From: Cryomorphaceae bacterium
Lineage (GTDB): Bacteria; Bacteroidota; Bacteroidia; Flavobacteriales_D; Parvicellaceae
Direction: 5' to 3'
Length of the DNA: 64,000 nt
Assembly (NCBI GenBank): GCA_905182525.1
Contig: CAJJBV010000006.1
Coordinates: forward strand, 1 to 64,000
Under the pieces are notes generated by a model that did not search any database, was not told the origin of the DNA, and saw only the letters and a program-made list of their open reading frames with translations. Shown piece by piece: positions 42,487 to 51,501 of this stretch. Position 1 is the first letter of the stretch. Each line of letters starts with the position of its first letter. Made by a program: the position numbers and the translations under genes.

Positions 42487-43734
42487 ATGAAATGTGAAGT
42501 TATATCAATTGGTGACGAATTATTAATTGGTCAAACTATAAATACAAATGCTTCGTGGATTGGAGAACAAATAAATATCTTAGGTTTTACTATTTCTCAT
42601 TGTTTAGTTATTTCTGACCTGAAAAATGATATTATCAACGCACTTGATCAAGCTTATAAAAGATCTGATATAATTATAATCACTGGTGGATTAGGGCCAA
42701 CAAATGATGATATTACAAAGCACACTTTAACTGAATATTTCAACACTTACTTAGAACTAGATATTGAAATTGAAAAAAATATAATCGATTATTTTACCAA
42801 TAGAAATTTACCTATTTTACAATCCAATAGGGACCAGGCCCTTATTCCAAAATCTTGTCAGGTTTTACCCAATAGCAGAGGATCTGCAAGTGGTATGTGG
42901 TTTGAAAAAAATGGAGTTGTATTTATTTCACTTCCTGGAGTTCCCTATGAAATGAAAGGGATTATGAATGATCATGTTTTTTCTAGATTATTAGCACTTA
43001 AAGGAGATGAAAATATTATAATTAATAAAACTATTAGAACCCATGGAATGGGGGAATCTTTTTTAGCTGAGGTGATTAAATCATGGGAAAAGAAATTAGC
43101 TAATGAAAATATAAAACTAGCTTACTTACCCTCACCTGGAATTGTTAAGCTAAGATTGTCAATTATTGGAAAAGATCGAAAATCATCTGAAGAAAAGTTG
43201 AATAGCTATATTTTAAAACTAAAAAAACTCATTCCAGAACAAATTTATGGGTATGACACAGATACTATGGAAGGCGTAGTAAGTAATTTATTAAAAGAAA
43301 AAAAACATACATTATCTACAGCAGAGAGTTGTACTGGTGGAAATATTTCTAAAATGATAACAAGTATTAGCGGAAGTTCTTCTTTTTTTAATGGGAGTGT
43401 AGTTACTTATACCAACAAGTCAAAATCCCAATTATTGGATGTAAATGACCAAGTCATTGAAAAACATGGAGCGGTAAGTCAACAGGTAGTAGAGCAAATG
43501 GCAAAAAATGTTAGATTAAAATTTGATTCAGATTACGGAATATCAACTTCTGGAATAGCTGGCCCAACTGGTGGAACAGCTGACAAGCCTGTAGGTACAG
43601 TTTGGATAGCAGTTGCTTCAGAAGAGAAAGTGATTTCTAAAAAACTAAATTTAGGGTATAATCGAGAAAGAAACATTCATGTTTCATCATTATCAGTGCT
43701 AAATTTATTGAGATTAGAGTTAATTAAGAATTAA
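42487..43734 (+). CDS. cinA: CinA-family protein (competence/damage-inducible; NMN deamidase domain)
   Basis: A 415-residue CinA with an N-terminal molybdopterin-binding-like (COG1058) domain (about 1-170: CEVISIGDELLIGQTINTN, ITGGLGPTNDD, LPGVPYEMKG) and a C-terminal CinA domain (about 255-415: STAESCTGGNIS, SGIAGPTGGTADKPVGTVW). The C-terminal domain deamidates nicotinamide mononucleotide in pyridine-nucleotide salvage, and the N-terminal domain has ADP-ribose pyrophosphatase activity in some members. Its end overlaps the convergent outer-membrane gene by four bases. Confidence 0.95.
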   Translation: MKCEVISIGDELLIGQTINTNASWIGEQINILGFTISHCLVISDLKNDIINALDQAYKRSDIIIITGGLGPTNDDITKHTLTEYFNTYLELDIEIEKNIIDYFTNRNLPILQSNRDQALIPKSCQVLPNSRGSASGMWFEKNGVVFISLPGVPYEMKGIMNDHVFSRLLALKGDENIIINKTIRTHGMGESFLAEVIKSWEKKLANENIKLAYLPSPGIVKLRLSIIGKDRKSSEEKLNSYILKLKKLIPEQIYGYDTDTMEGVVSNLLKEKKHTLSTAESCTGGNISKMITSISGSSSFFNGSVVTYTNKSKSQLLDVNDQVIEKHGAVSQQVVEQMAKNVRLKFDSDYGISTSGIAGPTGGTADKPVGTVWIAVASEEKVISKKLNLGYNRERNIHVSSLSVLNLLRLELIKN

Positions 43735-44956
43735 AATTTCGTAAGCCATGATATCATTGGAATTGGAGCAGATGTTGATTCATTTTCATTAATATTAATA
43801 AATCCTGCTAAAGCAACTTGAAATGAAGATGTATAAGATTGGTTAAATCTCATAGCAGGCATAAAAATAAAAGTAGTACTTCTAGAAGTTTCAGAACCTA
43901 TTGAGCCTTCGCCATAAATTACTGTTTGGGTTTCTGTTTGGGGAGTAGATATTCCAGTTGCAGGATTGTTGGTATTGTAATGTAAGTAACATCTAATTTC
44001 TTTTGATAGTATAGTTAGTTTAGACTTATTAGCTATAAAAAGCATAGAGTCAAAAATAAAACTAGCTTTTTTACCAAATGGAACTATACCAGAAAAGCCA
44101 ATTACAGAAGCCAATTGTTTTGATTTGTAAAATCTTCTTTTGTTATAGCTCAATCCTCCTTCAACAGTATTTTGAAAAGCATTTATAAAATCAGAATTGC
44201 CTGCGTTAACAGGTGGAATATAATAAGGGTGATTTCATCATAAAAACTATAAGAATTTTTATCGCCAATATCTCTTGCACTAGACATAAAAACAGAGCCG
44301 AAATCATCATTAGTAGTATTTTCGGTCCAATTAATGTGAGCCAAACCTGCTGAAAAACTAACGTTTGATAATCTATTCCCAATGGTCATTGTTCCCCAGT
44401 GTAACCCACCATAAGTCTGCCCCTGATTAATATATCCAGAAGAACCTATAATACTTCCAATTGAAACATGAAAATTATTATTGCTGTAAATTTGTTGTTT
44501 TAATACTAATGCTATGGGACTCGCAATCCAAGTTGCCATGATTCCAATAGATGTCTTATTTCCTACGCTAAGATGAATTTCCGGTCCATAAAGGTGAATA
44601 AGTCCATAATTATCATTTTTCTTAATAGGAAGTGCATTGGTTGTGAAATAATATCTAGTTGTGAATGGCCCAGATGCTCTAAATTCTTTATTTTCTTTAT
44701 TTTTTAAACCCTCATCAACTTTAGTAATAGAAGAAATATCAGACTTATTTATAAATATTTTCCCAATAGCTTTAGTAACTACAAGAATCTCTCTTCCGTC
44801 ATCTGAAATAATTTCCCCAATAAATTCTCCCCCATCATTTTTTACAATTAAAACAAGATTTTCATTTTTATTTTCAATTTCTTCAGATGTCTGACTGAAA
44901 ATTTGAATCTGAAATGCTAAAAAAAGCAAAATCATATAGCTTGTGAATTTCCTCAT
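43731..44956 (-). CDS. Hypothetical outer-membrane protein, interrupted by one frameshift
   Basis: About 408 residues when the frame is repaired. A signal peptide covers about 1-22 (QIQIFSQ end). A short N-terminal beta domain (about 30-80, LIVKNDGGEFIGEIISDDG) precedes a barrel-like region with HLSVGNKTSIGIMATW, SFSAGLAHINW and the C-terminal piece AIPMISW-like APIPMISWLTKF. The first frame ends at 44183. The downstream part (from about YYIPPVNAG) continues in another frame to 43731. The switch lies between 44238 and 44225, near a C run, and looks like a one-base deletion. It is the last gene after the pyrophosphatase in the accessory cluster. The family is not recognised. Confidence 0.7.
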
Positions 44957-45025: not shown

Positions 45026-45631
45026 TTATTTATTTAATGACCATTTTCTAATTTCATCAATAGCTTCATTTCTATTTCCCCAAGAAATATACTTAGTTTT
45101 ATTAGGCCCTTTATAATTGCAAAACCAAGTTTGTATTATTGTTTTTATAGAATGAGTTAAAGAGTCTTTTATAAAGTTCATTTTACTGTCTTGAGGAATA
45201 GCAATTACCTTATGATCTTCTTCTCCACCATCTAAAAGTTTAAGGATACCAATTGGATTTATTTTCACTTCACTTCCTTGATCAATAGATTCAGAAATAA
45301 TTAAAACATCTAGAGCATCTCCATCACCTCCAATTTTAGGATCCATATAAGTATTTGTAATAAAACCATAATTGCCAGGATATGGAAGGTAGTTTATAAC
45401 CCTTTCTTTACCATTGATAATTTCAACTTCAAAAGACTCTTTCCTGTAATTATACTCATATTTTTTATTGGTGCCTGCCGATATTTCTACAACAGCAGTA
45501 AATGATTTTTTTTCATTTGAAGATTTTTTTTCTTTTACTGAGCATCCAATGAAGATTAGAAAAATAAGAATTATTTGGGTTAATAGCTTAAACAATTTAT
45601 TCTCTATTATAGTAAATAGTAATGTTTGCAA
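45026..45631 (-). CDS. Lipoprotein family I inorganic pyrophosphatase
   Basis: A family I pyrophosphatase (PPi to two phosphates) that carries a lipoprotein signal: a hydrophobic run ends LIFLIFIGC with Cys30, so the enzyme should be anchored in the envelope rather than cytosolic. Active-site residues match the soluble enzyme: the Glu-Ile-(Ser)-Ala-Gly segment, KYEYNY, YPGNYGF, the Asp triad GGDGDALDVLI, and ILKLLDGGEEDHKVIAIP. The annotated ATG overlaps DUF4956 by 35 bases. An alternative TTG at 45595 would start just after the DUF4956 stop and give a shorter, cleaner signal. It lies immediately downstream of the DUF4956/VTC pair. Confidence 0.88.
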   Translation of the reverse strand: MQTLLFTIIENKLFKLLTQIILIFLIFIGCSVKEKKSSNEKKSFTAVVEISAGTNKKYEYNYRKESFEVEIINGKERVINYLPYPGNYGFITNTYMDPKIGGDGDALDVLIISESIDQGSEVKINPIGILKLLDGGEEDHKVIAIPQDSKMNFIKDSLTHSIKTIIQTWFCNYKGPNKTKYISWGNRNEAIDEIRKWSLNK

Positions 45632-46199
45632 TATCTCTTAAGAAGTCAATTTTATCAACCTTGAATTCATGAACAGGCAGCCCAGTTCTATTTCTTAAAT
45701 CCTTTATCATATCTTCTTTTTTCTCAGGTTTGATGAGGTCGATTTTTTCATAAATAATAGTTTTATTTTCTTCAATAGATTGAAACCATAACCGATCAAT
45801 TAAGTAGGTAATTAATGTTATTAAACCATTAGTAAATAAAACCTCAAAAATACTAACAGATTTATTTGACAATGCATTAATCATAGATATGCCAATAACA
45901 ATAAATAAATAAGTCATCTGCCTAATAGGAATTGCTTCTGTTCTATATCTTAAGATTCCGAAAACAGCAAATAATCCTAATGCAAAGCCCATTTCCATTG
46001 GAACTTTTCTTAGCAAAAAACAAATGAAAAAAGTAAGTATGTTGAACATTATGTAGGTAAAGACATAATCCTTATCATCTTTTACCCTATAGTAAACTAA
46101 CCTAACAATAATTATTAAAAAAATAAAGTTTATCCCAAACTTGAACAATAACTTTGAGAAGTCTTCTAAGTCAAAAAAATCAATTCCATATAATTCCAT
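45597..46199 (-). CDS. DUF4956 membrane protein
   Basis: A 200-residue membrane protein of the DUF4956 family with about four helices (residues 16-36, 45-63, 68-88 and 95-115, perhaps a fifth near 125-140) and a cytosolic C-terminal domain ending IANITIYYNRE. The conserved loop FGILRYRTEAIPIRQMTYLF is the family signature. DUF4956 genes are often next to VTC-domain polyphosphate polymerase genes, and the protein may anchor or channel the product. It overlaps the VTC gene by 20 bases and the pyrophosphatase by 35 bases. The function is inferred from this association only. Confidence 0.87.
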   Translation of the reverse strand: MELYGIDFFDLEDFSKLLFKFGINFIFLIIIVRLVYYRVKDDKDYVFTYIMFNILTFFICFLLRKVPMEMGFALGLFAVFGILRYRTEAIPIRQMTYLFIVIGISMINALSNKSVSIFEVLFTNGLITLITYLIDRLWFQSIEENKTIIYEKIDLIKPEKKEDMIKDLRNRTGLPVHEFKVDKIDFLRDIANITIYYNRE

Positions 46200-46947
46200 T
46201 CTTACTTATTTTATTAATGAATAATAGTTTACGTTTAAAATTATTGTATTTCAAATTAGTATTCAAAATACATGATCCAATAGTGTATTTACTAAATCTA
46301 GTAGGTCTAATTCTTTTTTCTTTTAAAATTGATAATATTTCTGATTTTCTATTTCCTTTTTCTCTCTTAATTTCAATAATACAGATATTATCTAGTTTTT
46401 TCTCTAATTTTCCAGAGCTAAATTTCAAATTAAAATCTATTGTAACTCTTTCTTTGGATTGAAAATTGACTAAAGTAACCCTGTCAAAATTATTTTTTAT
46501 TTTAATTTCTAAATCCTTGGAACTGTATGGAGTTTGTTTTTCTATAAAATTAATATTTTTTTTATTTAAATCTTTATTTCTAAATGGGACACTAATTCTA
46601 GTTTTTTTTGTAACTCCTTTATTTGATTTGAACTTAACTTCCAAAAAAGTTTTTTTTGATTCTACATAATCTCTAAATCTAATTTTATACCTATTTAATT
46701 TTCCGTTTTGGTGATTTTTAAACAAAGAATGATTAGAGTCATCAAAATATTCAGTTTGATAGGTGAAAAATCTTTTACCATTAATTTCAAGGCATAAATA
46801 TTTATGATTTATTTTAGAAAGTATGTCAATTGTATTTTCAAAAGAAATTGTGAATTTTTCATCTACTCTTTCCATTAGGGCAACTTCATCCATCTCAGGT
46901 AAAGTGGTGGATTTGTAATCTTTTAATATGGAAATGATCTTAGACAT
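46180..46947 (-). CDS. VTC-domain (polyphosphate polymerase-like) protein
   Basis: A 255-residue tunnel-fold protein of the VTC domain family, related to the catalytic domain of yeast Vtc4, which polymerises the gamma phosphate of ATP into polyphosphate. The tunnel-lining basic and acidic residues are present: MERVDEKF (about 25-32), RYKIRFRDY (86-94), FLEVKFKSNKG (101-111), KKTRISV (114-120), ERVTIDFNL (166-174), IIEIKRE (190-196) and RFSKY (217-221). It lies 12 bases after the CotH/beta-helix gene and overlaps DUF4956 by 20 bases. Polyphosphate synthesis is inferred by homology, and a different phosphoryl acceptor is possible. Confidence 0.88.
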   Translation of the reverse strand: MSKIISILKDYKSTTLPEMDEVALMERVDEKFTISFENTIDILSKINHKYLCLEINGKRFFTYQTEYFDDSNHSLFKNHQNGKLNRYKIRFRDYVESKKTFLEVKFKSNKGVTKKTRISVPFRNKDLNKKNINFIEKQTPYSSKDLEIKIKNNFDRVTLVNFQSKERVTIDFNLKFSSGKLEKKLDNICIIEIKREKGNRKSEILSILKEKRIRPTRFSKYTIGSCILNTNLKYNNFKRKLLFINKISKNGIIWN

Positions 46948-46959
46948 TAATATTAAGTT

Positions 46960-48650
46960 TTATTTTTTAAATGTAGCTTTTCCATATTTGTTGCCGTAAA
47001 GATAATCGATTACATTATTTTGAAAATCTTCAATCTTTGCGCCGTTGATAGTGAGTGAGGAATTATACTCTATTAGGTTTTCTTTATTACAGTTTGATAT
47101 ACTATCATATTCTGAAAATATTTTTCCAGGTCCAAATTCTCCTTTTTTTTGAAATGCACAGAAGGCAATTTCACAATTTATAATTGTATTATTTAATGAT
47201 TTTAGTTCCGATAAATCTTTTGAAATTATACCCATGGAAGAGTTTTTAATTACAGAATTTGTTAAACTTAACTTACTTTTTTCACCTGCACTAACAGCTT
47301 TGTCTTTAATACTAAAAAATCCACATTCTGTTAAATTTAAGTTTCCTCCAGAAATATCAACCCCATCATTTCCGCAGTTAATAAAATTGCAATTTAATAT
47401 AACCCCATTACTGAAATCTGCATCAAATGCATCGGAAAAAGTATTTTCAATTCTTGTGTTTTGAAATTTGTATTCACATCTAAAAAAATTAACTGCATCT
47501 TCACTTTTAATATTTTTGAAAGTGCAATTATTAACACTTATTTGTCCACCATATACAGTAAATGCACTAGGAAGATTCCAATGATTATATTTTGAAGTGT
47601 CAATTAAAGAAAATTGATTGGAAAATTTTAAATAGTTTATTTTACTAGAGTTATTTTCCTGAATTATATGAATCCCTTGACCTGTGCTATCTGTAGACTT
47701 TATTTCAACAAGTTCATTTTTATTTCCATTAATTGTAAAAGAACTAAATGATAAAATTGAACTGTTATTTACTAAATCAATTATATCTCCATTTCTTAAT
47801 ATTACATGATATCCTTTAGGAATCAATAACTTTTTATTTATTACTGAATATTTATTTTTTAGAGTTAATATATTTGAATCTTCTTCTAGAAAATAATTTA
47901 GATAGCTAGTAAATTCTTCGCTAGAAAATGTAGTTATTTTTTCATTTTTTAACTTTTTATTTATTTTAAAACCTGAAAAAATTGGTTCAAGTTTATAAGT
48001 TATAGGATTTATATAAAAATAATTAGGTAATAAGTTCCTGAAATATTTATTTGATATTTTTTTAAATTTTTTAAATTCATTAGCGTTGATATAATTAGTG
48101 TTTAAACTATTTGAATTTATAAATTGTAAAATAGAATTGGAGAACTCAGGATTAAAAAATTCTCTTTTTGTACTTTCTTAATAATTGTTCAATGGAATCT
48201 ATTTTTAAAATAATTCCTTCTCTTCTAGAATTAGATTCTATAAGCCTTTTCCCAATTTCTTCTTGAAATAAATATTTCTTATTTTTAATTAAGATAATTT
48301 TTGTTAGAACACCAATTAGATTAGATTCTTTTAATTCCTTATTAAATGCAATAATTTTTTGAGCCTTTGTTAAATCAGTTTCTGATAATATAGGATAGAG
48401 TATAAATTTTTTTTTTCTATATATTCTTTTGCCTTCTTTACATAGAAATTTAAAATAAAAATCCTCTTTTTCAGCCCTAACCCTAATTGTGTCATTTTCA
48501 ATGTAAAAACTAATTATATCATTCGTTTCAATCTCATTAATAGACTTACTAGTATCAATTTTATCAATAAAATCTTTATTGTCTATCAGAACAATTTGTA
48601 AAAACCATTAATAAAGCCAAGATTGAAAAGGCCAGTTTTCTTTTATTCAT
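46960..48650 (-). CDS. CotH kinase-like protein fused to a right-handed beta-helix, interrupted by two frameshifts
   Basis: A protein of about 562 residues spread over three frames. Frame A (48650 down) gives MNKRKLAFSILALL with a lipobox-like FTNC (Cys20) and stops at 48576. Frame B (about 48583 to 48152) gives a CotH-like kinase part with FILYPILSETDLTKA, YLFQEEIGKRLIESNSRREGIILKID, the region matching the Glu-Glu-x-x-Lys and R-R-E-G block of CotH. Frame C (48177 to 46960) gives YFYINPITYKLEPIF (the CotH C-terminal NP-x-T-x-x-LEPI block) and then a parallel beta-helix (FSSFTINGN, NNCTFKNIKSEDAVNFF, CNFINCGNDGVDISGG). Both switches are +1. CotH enzymes phosphorylate proteins or use AMP transfer; the target is unknown. 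Confidence 0.75.
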
Positions 48651-48668: not shown

Positions 48669-50054
48669 TTATTTTATAAGATTATAATTAGAAATATCTA
48701 TTTTATAAAGATCAGAGTCTCCATAGCTATCTTCCTTATAATAGCCTCCTACATAGGCAGTATTACCATCTTTAGAGACATAGATTGTCTTTTCTTCTAA
48801 AGTTGTGTTTATTGGGAATCCCATATTTATAGGCTCGCTCCAATTTTCATGTCCTCCTGTACAATAGTAAATGTCATAACTTCCAACACTTTCTTTTCTT
48901 CCGTTAGAGGTGAAAAATAATAATTTCCCATTTGGATGAATAAATACACATTTTTCATCTCCAGGTGTATTGATATTGTTTTCTAAGTGAACAGGTTCAC
49001 TGTATGAATGATCAGTTTTTTTTACATAATATATATCAGTTTGGCCAATTCCTGTAGGTCTTTCAGAAACAAAATATATATAAGATTCATCTTCAGTAAT
49101 ACTCGCAGAACTTTCAAAATAAGAACTGTTTATTTTTTTACTTAGTTTTTTGTTTCTATGAAAAATAGGCTTTGGAGAAGACCACTTTCCTGAATTTGAA
49201 TATGTGGCTTCAAAAATATCACCACTTCTAGTAACATTATAAATATTTCTATAAATAATAATTGAATTATCAGACTTGAAACTTAGCGACCCGTCGTGAA
49301 ATTCAGTATTAATTTTACCTAAATCATTACTTGGTTTAGACCACTCCTTTTTTATAGAATCCCATTGTGATAAGTAAATATCTGAAAAATATTGGTGGTC
49401 ATAATTTTTATCAACATTCCCGCCTTTTGTATCGGATCTTCTAGATGTAAACATTAAATATTTCCCATCATTACTTATTGAAGGGGCAAATTCTGGGCCG
49501 TCTGTATTTAAAACTTTTCCCATGTTAGATATCACTACTTTATTATTTGGTTTTAACATTTCTTTTTGTGCATAAGCTACTTGGTTAAGCTTTAAATCTA
49601 AAGAATAACCCTTTATCTTTTGTTTAGAATCTGATTCAGATATAAATTTTTCGTAGTAAATCTTTGCCTTATCTAGTTCTGCTAATCTGAAATAAATTTC
49701 ACCCATCATATAATATAAATCCTGATCAGCTTTTGGGTCATTTTCAAAAGCCAACTCTATATAATATTTAGCTTTTTTATAATTATGTAATTTGTAATAA
49801 CAACTAGCAATTCCAAAATGCGCTTTGGCATTTGAAGGGTTAATAACGATAAGATCTTTATAATCTAACAGTGCATTTTTAAAATTTCCTTCAGAATAAA
49901 ACTGATAAGCTTCAGATAATTTTATTTGAGCTTTTGTTTTTTCCAAGGGTTTCATTTCTTTAAAGAACTTTTTTTCTTGAGATAAATTTTCGTTAGAAAA
50001 ACTTAAGATAATAATGATTATAACTAGCTTAGGTAAAAATATTTGACACTTCAT
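48669..50054 (-). CDS. TPR and PD40 (WD40-like) repeat exported protein without OmpA domain
   Basis: About 461 residues from the ATG at 50054, which gives a signal sequence MKCQIFLPKLVIIIIILSF; the longer frame to 50102 adds no signal features. TPR repeats (about 45-145: AYQFYSEGNFKNALLDYKDL, AHFGIASCYYKLHNYKKA, YYMMGEIYFRLAELDKA) are followed by five or six PD40 blades (APSISNDGKYLMFTSRR, SASITEDESYIYFVSERP, FIHPNGKLLFFTSNG, YVSKDGNTAYVGGY). This matches PorE-like proteins of the T9SS except that the CRD and OmpA-like peptidoglycan domain are missing. It is the first gene of the CotH/VTC set, 18 bases upstream of CotH. Confidence 0.85.
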   Translation of the reverse strand: MKCQIFLPKLVIIIIILSFSNENLSQEKKFFKEMKPLEKTKAQIKLSEAYQFYSEGNFKNALLDYKDLIVINPSNAKAHFGIASCYYKLHNYKKAKYYIELAFENDPKADQDLYYMMGEIYFRLAELDKAKIYYEKFISESDSKQKIKGYSLDLKLNQVAYAQKEMLKPNNKVVISNMGKVLNTDGPEFAPSISNDGKYLMFTSRRSDTKGGNVDKNYDHQYFSDIYLSQWDSIKKEWSKPSNDLGKINTEFHDGSLSFKSDNSIIIYRNIYNVTRSGDIFEATYSNSGKWSSPKPIFHRNKKLSKKINSSYFESSASITEDESYIYFVSERPTGIGQTDIYYVKKTDHSYSEPVHLENNINTPGDEKCVFIHPNGKLLFFTSNGRKESVGSYDIYYCTGGHENWSEPINMGFPINTTLEEKTIYVSKDGNTAYVGGYYKEDSYGDSDLYKIDISNYNLIK

Positions 50055-50156
50055 AAAAATATAATTGTCTATAAAATTAACAAAATATAGTGGTATTGTC
50101 ATAATTTCACGATTCTAACTAGCTAATTATTAAATTTACAGTATTAAAACTCAAAT

Positions 50157-51501
50157 ATGTCTATTTATTCATTGAATGCCATTAGCCCTATTGACGGTAG
50201 GTATTATACTAAAACCAAAGTATTAAGTAATTATTTTTCTGAATCTTCATTGATTAGATATAGAGTTAAAGTAGAAATTGAATATTTTATTTCCTTATGT
50301 GAATTACCGCTTCCCCAATTAATAAATGTTAAAAAGGATCTTTTTTTAAAACTAAGATCATACTATAATGATTTTTCAGACAAAGACGCTCAAAGAGTTA
50401 AAGATATTGAACTTACCACTAACCATGATGTAAAAGCTGTGGAGTATTTTATAAAAGAAAAAATGGATTTAGATGGTATTGGCGAAGCTAAGGAGTTTGT
50501 ACATTTTGGACTTACTTCACAAGATATTAATAATACCGCAGTTCCAATGTCCATAATGGACGCATTAAAAGATATTTACTTGCCTTCATTAAATAATTTA
50601 GTTGACGATATAGAAAAGCTTTCTATTCAATTTTCATCAATTGCAATGTTAGCTAAAACTCACGGTCAACCAGCTTCTCCTACTAGACTTGGAAAGGAAT
50701 TATATGTTTTTGTAGAAAGAATAGTTCAACAATTGGAGATACTTAAATCTGTAACCCATGCTGGTAAATTTGGTGGTGCAACAGGAAATTTTAATGCTCA
50801 CCATGTAGCATATCCAAAAATTAAATGGAAAGAATTTGCCGATAATTTCCTAAAAGACAAATTAAAACTCTGATAGATCTCAAACTACTACTCAAATTGA
50901 ACATTATGATCATTTAGCTTCATTATTCGACGTTATAAAAAGAATAAATAATATCATCTTAGATTTAAATAGGGATATGTGGACCTATATATCTATGGAT
51001 TATTTCAAACAAAAAATTAAAGAAGGTGAAATAGGTTCTTCCGCAATGCCGCATAAAGTTAATCCAATAGATTTTGAAAATTCAGAAGGAAATATTGGTA
51101 TAGCAAATGCAATTTTAGAACACTTAAGTTCAAAATTACCGGTAAGTAGATTGCAAAGAGATTTAACAGACAGTACAGTTTTAAGAAACATTGGTGTTCC
51201 TTTTTCACATGGACTTATTGCTATTTTGTCAACTCAAAAAGGATTAAATAAGCTTCTTTTAAATAAAGAGGCAATTGATAAAGATTTAGATAATAATTGG
51301 GCTGTAGTAGCCGAAGCTATCCAAACTATATTAAGAAGAGAAGGTGTTAAAAACCCTTATGAATTACTTAAAGATCTCACTAGGAAAAATGAAAAGATTA
51401 CTAAGAACTCAATGAAAGAGTTTATTAAAAATCTTGATGTTTCTAAAGAAATTAAAGATGAATTAGAGAGAATATCTCCATTTAATTATACTGGTTTATA
51501 A
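50157..51501 (+). CDS. purB: Adenylosuccinate lyase, interrupted by a +1 frameshift
   Basis: PurB acts twice in purine synthesis: it cleaves SAICAR and adenylosuccinate. The 5' frame covers NAISPIDGRYYTKT, VEYFIKEKM and FGLTSQDINNTA, then THGQPASPTRLGKE, and ends at 50873 (KDKLKL). The 3' frame resumes with DRSQTTTQIEHYDHLA, MWTYISMDYF, GSSAMPHKVNPIDFENSEGN (catalytic signature) and RDLTDSTVLRN. The switch lies between 50866 and 50873, in AAAAC-TC. Removing one base gives 447 residues, the usual flavobacterial length, so this is a one-base insertion. The gene is otherwise intact. Confidence 0.92.

Follow-up and report, generated by a model that had tools for sequence, protein, structure and literature searches.

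A candidate envelope phosphate-polymer operon in Flavobacteriales links VTC and DUF4956 genes to a lipoprotein pyrophosphatase

Why should a bacterium encode an inorganic pyrophosphatase (PPase) that carries a lipoprotein signal, and why should the gene for this enzyme sit beside that for a candidate polyphosphate polymerase? The question is raised by a compact set of genes in a 64,000-nucleotide stretch of a Cryomorphaceae bacterium assembly (GCA_905182525.1, contig CAJJBV010000006.1, positions 1 to 64,000), hereafter called the window. The gene order in the window genus is CotH-related beta-helix lipoprotein, VTC, DUF4956, and lipoprotein PPase. This four-gene arrangement occurs far beyond chance. 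We tentatively favor reading the unit as a conserved operon for envelope phosphate polymers, wherein VTC-DUF4956 would make and export polyphosphate while the outer lipoproteins would bind or hydrolyze it. The members of the unit, together with the gene directly upstream, are listed here.

48669..50102, minus strand: TPR/PD40 protein, directly upstream of the unit (Pfam and synteny)
46960..48650, minus strand: CotH-related pseudokinase remnant and right-handed beta-helix lipoprotein (two frameshifts here; weak Beta_helix matches)
46180..46947, minus strand: VTC domain protein, candidate polyphosphate polymerase, soluble, TTM fold (PF09359, E 2e-21)
45597..46199, minus strand: DUF4956 inner-membrane protein (PF16316, E 3e-53)
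45026..45595, minus strand: family I inorganic PPase with a lipoprotein signal (PF00719, E 1e-31)

An earlier sequence-only reading of this locus had placed a VTC gene on the minus strand and had it share 20 bases with a DUF4956 gene, and both assignments were borne out. The same reading described a pyrophosphatase with a lipoprotein signal that overlaps DUF4956 by 35 bases. The enzyme family and the signal stand, but the overlap does not, and belongs only to the longest mechanical open reading frame (ORF), which begins at TTG 45631. Because the orthologs start at the equivalent of TTG 45595, and because this start yields a textbook lipoprotein signal, the PPase start is most probably TTG 45595, which is 1 base past the DUF4956 stop.

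Random placement of lipoprotein PPases across related genomes would be at odds with the idea of a module, and the idea survived this comparison: linkage is seen in the window family, in a second lineage (f3/g26), and in several Flavobacteriaceae. An order-wide survey of 150 genomes found DUF4956 in 141 and PF00719 in 71. The PF00719 matches form a lower-scoring set (n=20), in which nearly all fetched members carry a lipoprotein signal as judged by a crude rule or by eye, and a higher-scoring set (n=57), from which the two members fetched (L050 and L051) have no signal. Counted by genome, 9/20 PPases of the lipoprotein type versus 0/57 of the others have DUF4956 within 10 kb (Fisher p 1e-6); counted by genus, the figures are 3/10 versus 0/37 (Fisher p 0.007).

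The linkage also appears to have arisen repeatedly. On the PPase tree, the label “linked” needs six changes, at least three of which are forced by starred branches alone. Lipoprotein PPases adjacent to VTC/DUF4956 occupy at least three separate places on this tree, where the gene order varies and the VTC-DUF4956 genes are of two deeply diverged types. Two types, one CotH-linked and one standalone, are separated with 100/100 support in both the VTC tree and the DUF4956 tree. The standalone type, to which the window pair belongs, is the ordinary core VTC-DUF4956 pair: most sampled genomes carry it by itself, next to pdhA/aceF/recG or other unrelated genes. The CotH-linked VTC type was matched in 5/399 genomes of the order, of which 4 are true examples and 2/4 have a lipoprotein PPase nearby. 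Because the window cassette is of the standalone type, CotH-beta-helix and lipoprotein PPase genes appear to have joined VTC-DUF4956 at least two times. This repeated assembly with different VTC-DUF4956 stock is the strongest evidence pointing to a functional tie.

It could be argued that unrelated envelope and phosphate genes are merely co-transcribed by coincidence in a small genome. The genome of about 2.2 Mb has close gene spacing, and most lipoprotein PPases and sampled VTC-DUF4956 pairs stand alone elsewhere, but a linkage that is repeated in at least three clades with two VTC types speaks against chance packing, as do the 9/20 versus 0/57 counts near DUF4956. We consider coincidence to be quite unlikely.

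Every congener in which the locus is assembled keeps the order beta-helix, VTC, DUF4956, PPase, and so does the sister genus g4. Representatives in f3/g26 (L042, L044) have an operon of DUF4956, VTC, and CotH-beta-helix genes that faces a lipoprotein PPase and a secreted metallophosphoesterase; the CotH-beta-helix protein there is 995 aa long and matches Pfam CotH at 8e-13. A PPase scan of species-representative genomes yielded 80 loci, with VTC in the flanks of 16 and DUF4956 in the flanks of 18; given the number of short contigs, both are minimum counts. Records from Maribacter, Allomuricauda, Cochleicola, and Dokdonia carry DUF4956, CotH-beta-helix, VTC, and PPase genes on one strand, and Flavobacteriaceae provide cases in which VTC, DUF4956, intact CotH kinases, and the lipoprotein PPase share a single operon. 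Several of the CotH-linked Flavobacteriaceae modules lie inside surface-polysaccharide clusters that include genes for a sugar transferase, GT2, GT4, MBOAT, a flippase, UDP-GlcNAc 2-epimerase, and a sulfotransferase with sulfate-activation genes. The annotated genes flanking the window unit are housekeeping genes, with no exopolysaccharide (pel) operon among them.

Other genes recur beside the lipoprotein PPase. A secreted metallophosphoesterase family with the N-terminal sequence YSFFVAGHTYG adjoins it at four loci (L042:7608-8723, L044:8115-9239, L107:10579-11451, and L093:10600-11484) and is a possible fifth partner. At two loci (L085:750-3517 and L093:6687-10603), CysD/CysN-like sulfate-activation genes are followed by the lipoprotein PPase, with a CysC-like gene and a sulfotransferase also present in L093, and a link to sulfated polysaccharides is possible. 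Loci of the Christiangramia/Mesonia type (L103, L105, L111, L113, L122, L136, and L137) encode another conserved lipoprotein (185 aa in L103) directly upstream of the PPase.

Is the PPase likely to be an active enzyme of the envelope? Translation from TTG 45595 gives the signal LFKLLTQIILIFLIFIG followed by CS, with LIFIG followed by CS as its lipobox. A signal peptide that ends in the lipobox cysteine is kept across orthologs (82/97 rows by a crude rule, and several others by eye), and an envelope location is predicted accordingly. The protein matches PF00719 and has 14/14 catalytic residues, invariant in A1 (E37, K45, E47, R65, Y72, Y76, D91, D93, D96, D122, D127, K129, Y161, and K162), so the conserved active site claimed earlier from the sequence is real. 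These residues compare with the catalytic set of family I in E. coli numbering: E20, K29, E31, R43, Y51, Y55, D65, D67, D70, D97, D102, K104, Y141, and K142. Among relatives, the ratio of nonsynonymous to synonymous substitution (dN/dS) is 0.13-0.26.

The genome has a single PF00719 match, the lipoprotein PPase. As the sole soluble family I PPase gene, it might encode a cytosolic protein, through a wrong start or an uncleaved signal, that removes pyrophosphate (PPi) generated by biosynthesis. However, the signal peptide and lipobox are kept across lineages, the cytosolic-type PPases of relatives mentioned above (L050, L051) have no signal, and cytosolic PPi has another remover because a membrane H+-PPase is present in the genome. 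A cytosolic role is therefore very improbable.

The main rival to the envelope phosphate-polymer operon is simple scavenging of PPi or polyphosphate from the surroundings. The lipoprotein PPase would split PPi or short polyphosphate from seawater or cell debris to phosphate, and VTC-DUF4956 would be its neighbor by way of phosphate storage and supply, with no reaction in common beyond the membrane. The complete active site suits this role, as do the wide distribution of lipoprotein PPases in Bacteroidota that do not have the module and the close relatives, which are largely marine-type metagenome-assembled genomes. But scavenging leaves unexplained the repeated co-location with CotH-beta-helix genes in differing orders, and the annotated neighbors of the unit include no phosphate-uptake gene. 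We judge it to be somewhat unlikely.

The proposed operon also calls for a polymer and a way out of the cytosol. The VTC profile matches Vtc4/Vtc2 structures, and the motifs RxKxRxRxY, ExKxK, ExK, and SKY are invariant, giving a VTC/TTM domain with the conserved tunnel Arg/Lys/Glu motifs of a polymerase. DUF4956 combines its PF16316 match with about 4-5 hydrophobic, transmembrane helices (from hydropathy) and a small C-terminal alpha/beta domain (in a low-confidence model, pLDDT 66). Each gene is present in a single copy in the genome, and among relatives dN/dS is about 0.1 for VTC and below 0.06 for DUF4956. PPK1 (PF02503), PPK2 (PF03976), and Ppx-GppA (PF02541) were not detected by profile search in 11/11 congeners, including three with low contamination and a completeness of at least 90%. 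The control genomes gave matches in the same search, and PPK1 was found in 14/40 relatives. The single VTC protein is thus the only polyphosphate polymerase candidate found, because neither PPK1 nor PPK2 was detected.

The CotH-related gene required the greatest revision. It had been described as a CotH/beta-helix gene at 46960-48650; the CotH ancestry was confirmed by profile-profile comparison, but the region is not a single open frame and is instead spread over three, with breaks near 48590 and 48165. Orthologs in 10/10 relatives examined are single intact ORFs of 561-577 aa, and these are under purifying selection (dN/dS 0.18-0.26). The two frameshifts are probably assembly indels because purB and another ORF pair in the same 14 kb are also frameshifted relative to their counterparts. 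For purB (adenylosuccinate lyase, 50157-51501), one frameshift lies near 50872 and the gene is an intact 447 aa in L033 and L034. The ORF pair at 43731-44956, with a frameshift at 44234, corresponds in relatives to one gene of about 397-399 aa with no assigned function, which is a tandem duplicate in L033 and is placed upstream of the beta-helix gene in g4/g9. A decaying pseudogene was considered as an explanation for the broken CotH-like gene and was rejected, given the intact relatives, a dN/dS of about 0.2, and the frameshifts in purB and another nearby gene.

Two parts can be recognized in the protein. Over its C-terminal ~310 aa it matches the beta-helix that forms the C-terminal part of CotH/beta-helix proteins of ~1000 aa (E 1e-80 to 1e-92), and its N-terminal ~160 columns can be aligned over their whole length to the CotH kinase domain of these larger proteins (hhalign 95.9%, E 5.9e-9). 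This ancestry is visible only via profile-profile comparison: Pfam CotH (PF08757) matches neither the window protein nor its relatives, and only a weak Beta_helix match is seen, in the window and one relative. The window-genus protein has lost RLKGDWxDH, HG...N, and the Asp that follows LEPI (in LEPI.(F/Y)D), all of which are present in the CotH-linked proteins. In a Foldseek search of the PDB, a model of the CotH-like N-terminal part (pLDDT 69) hit only protein kinases, and those weakly (best E 2e-3, TM 0.23); these matches are suggestive but are not used as proof. Profile searches of CotH and DUF4956 and a phmmer search of a CotH protein against the PDB gave no matches. The upstream protein is best called a CotH pseudokinase-beta-helix lipoprotein with a shrunken kinase domain, and like the PPase it has a lipoprotein signal. 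Thus, the “CotH kinase” that the sequence-only reading took to be the kinase of the operon cannot be assumed to be one, because its kinase domain is eroded.

An intact kinase of the same subfamily is encoded elsewhere in the genome. A second locus, G000:C2 (L139), holds a CotH lipoprotein of 722 aa (L139:8825-10993) that retains RIKGDWVDHL, HGLAWHN, and EPIGYD; a stretch of ~548 aa in it can be aligned to the CotH half of fused CotH-beta-helix proteins (E 8e-90). The locus also holds a lipoprotein metallophosphoesterase (Pfam 1.5e-6) homologous to one that lies between VTC and PPase in L073, a Flavobacteriaceae module. As judged from these similarities, this kinase and metallophosphoesterase probably belong to the same system as the window unit and form a second half that has become separated from it. 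Because two other loci (L084, L093) hold an intact CotH and a pseudo-CotH-beta-helix protein within one operon, the window lineage looks like a split kinase/pseudokinase pair. A further cluster of CotH, beta-helix, and lamin-tail genes in this genome (G000:C5:172154-175588, L140) is also broken by stops or frameshifts.

The chemistry that we infer for these observably linked genes would begin in the cytosol, where VTC would make polyphosphate from ATP and pass the polymer to DUF4956. By analogy with the coupling in yeast VTC, which synthesizes polyphosphate from ATP with PPi as primer and passes the chain through a membrane channel attached to it (PMC9911596), DUF4956 would move the polymer across the inner membrane. 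Outside, the beta-helix pseudokinase lipoprotein might bind the polymer or its acceptor (a surface glycan or protein), and the PPase would hydrolyze PPi, and perhaps short polyphosphate, to phosphate.

Of all the steps, use of the exported polymer as a donor by CotH kinases would be of greatest interest and has the least support. The sequence-only reading had supposed that envelope CotH kinases take their phosphoryl group from the VTC product or PPi, with the PPase clearing released PPi. The co-occurrence of VTC, DUF4956, intact CotH kinases, and lipoprotein PPase in one Flavobacteriaceae operon speaks for this model, as do the intact CotH protein elsewhere in the window genome and the surface-polysaccharide clusters around CotH-linked modules, which could supply acceptors. 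However, the CotH protein of the window operon lacks the kinase motifs, and CotH kinases are known to use ATP, and so we find the model improbable. An extended form, drawn by analogy with secreted kinase/pseudokinase pairs, is that in PPK-free bacteria VTC-DUF4956 might export polyphosphate (or PPi), which CotH-family kinases would use outside the cytoplasm as phosphoryl donor for surface glycans or proteins, with the PPase pulling the reaction by PPi removal and the beta-helix pseudokinase serving as scaffold. We offer this version as doubtful speculation.

Several observations weigh against an envelope phosphate-polymer operon. About 62/80 of the lipoprotein PPase loci, mostly in Saprospiraceae, have neighbors other than VTC/DUF4956, from which it follows that the lipoprotein PPase also acts outside the module, and standalone VTC-DUF4956 pairs are the majority of those sampled in the order. 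One relative (L040, g9) has no VTC gene between its beta-helix and DUF4956 genes. The DUF4956 model (pLDDT 66) gave no meaningful structural match, and export is proposed by analogy because this family has no known structure and the model is poor. The absence of PPK and Ppx comes from profile searches of partly incomplete genomes, and the window unit is tied to G000:C2 by homology only. As for the TPR/PD40 gene, it is an upstream neighbor kept in the genus and possibly lies on the same transcript, although we do not claim it as a member of the unit.

If the proposed operon is correct, it would bear on extracytoplasmic phosphorylation, where ATP is not expected, and on the role of bacterial VTC-DUF4956 pairs. 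DUF4956 was found in 141/150 genomes of the order, yet is seldom mentioned in the literature searched. A genus with no detectable PPK1, PPK2, or Ppx that carries a compact operon offers a clean system in which synthesis, export, and removal would be assigned to one gene each and the kinase is separable. Its occurrence in marine Flavobacteriales would allow a test of whether phosphate polymers are handled by bacteria beyond the cell membrane.

How does the unit compare with known systems? The association of CotH, VTC, and DUF4956 is already known. CotH, a polyphosphate polymerase, and DUF4956 are accessory genes of Gram-positive Pel loci, where their role is not settled (PMC7112168), and the cluster is also found in C. 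perfringens (PMC2879425, PMC11677781). Our literature searches found no relevant description of a periplasmic or lipoprotein inorganic PPase, of its recurrence as a partner, of the pseudokinase-beta-helix form, or of the PPK-free setting. The window resembles the known clusters in that the three families adjoin, with CotH identified by homology only, and the Flavobacteriaceae modules likewise lie within surface-polysaccharide clusters. The window unit differs in its added lipoprotein PPase, in a CotH protein that is fused to a beta-helix and eroded, in having no Pel operon, and in its standalone-type VTC-DUF4956. With CotH kinases such as the B. subtilis spore coat protein CotH, the window protein shares distant homology over the N-terminal ~160 aa, but the RLKGDWxDH, HG...N, and EPI.(F/Y)D motifs are missing and a beta-helix follows. 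The eukaryotic VTC complex (Vtc1/Vtc3/Vtc4; PMC9911596) has a homologous TTM polymerase domain, matching basic/acidic motifs, and a membrane-protein partner, whereas the window VTC, a candidate polymerase, has no SPX domain, and its DUF4956 partner shows no detectable relationship to the transmembrane domain of Vtc proteins. Finally, the window PPase shares its fold family and all 14 catalytic positions with soluble family I PPases (E. coli PPA and Sulfolobus 1QEZ), and differs from them in its N-terminal lipoprotein signal.

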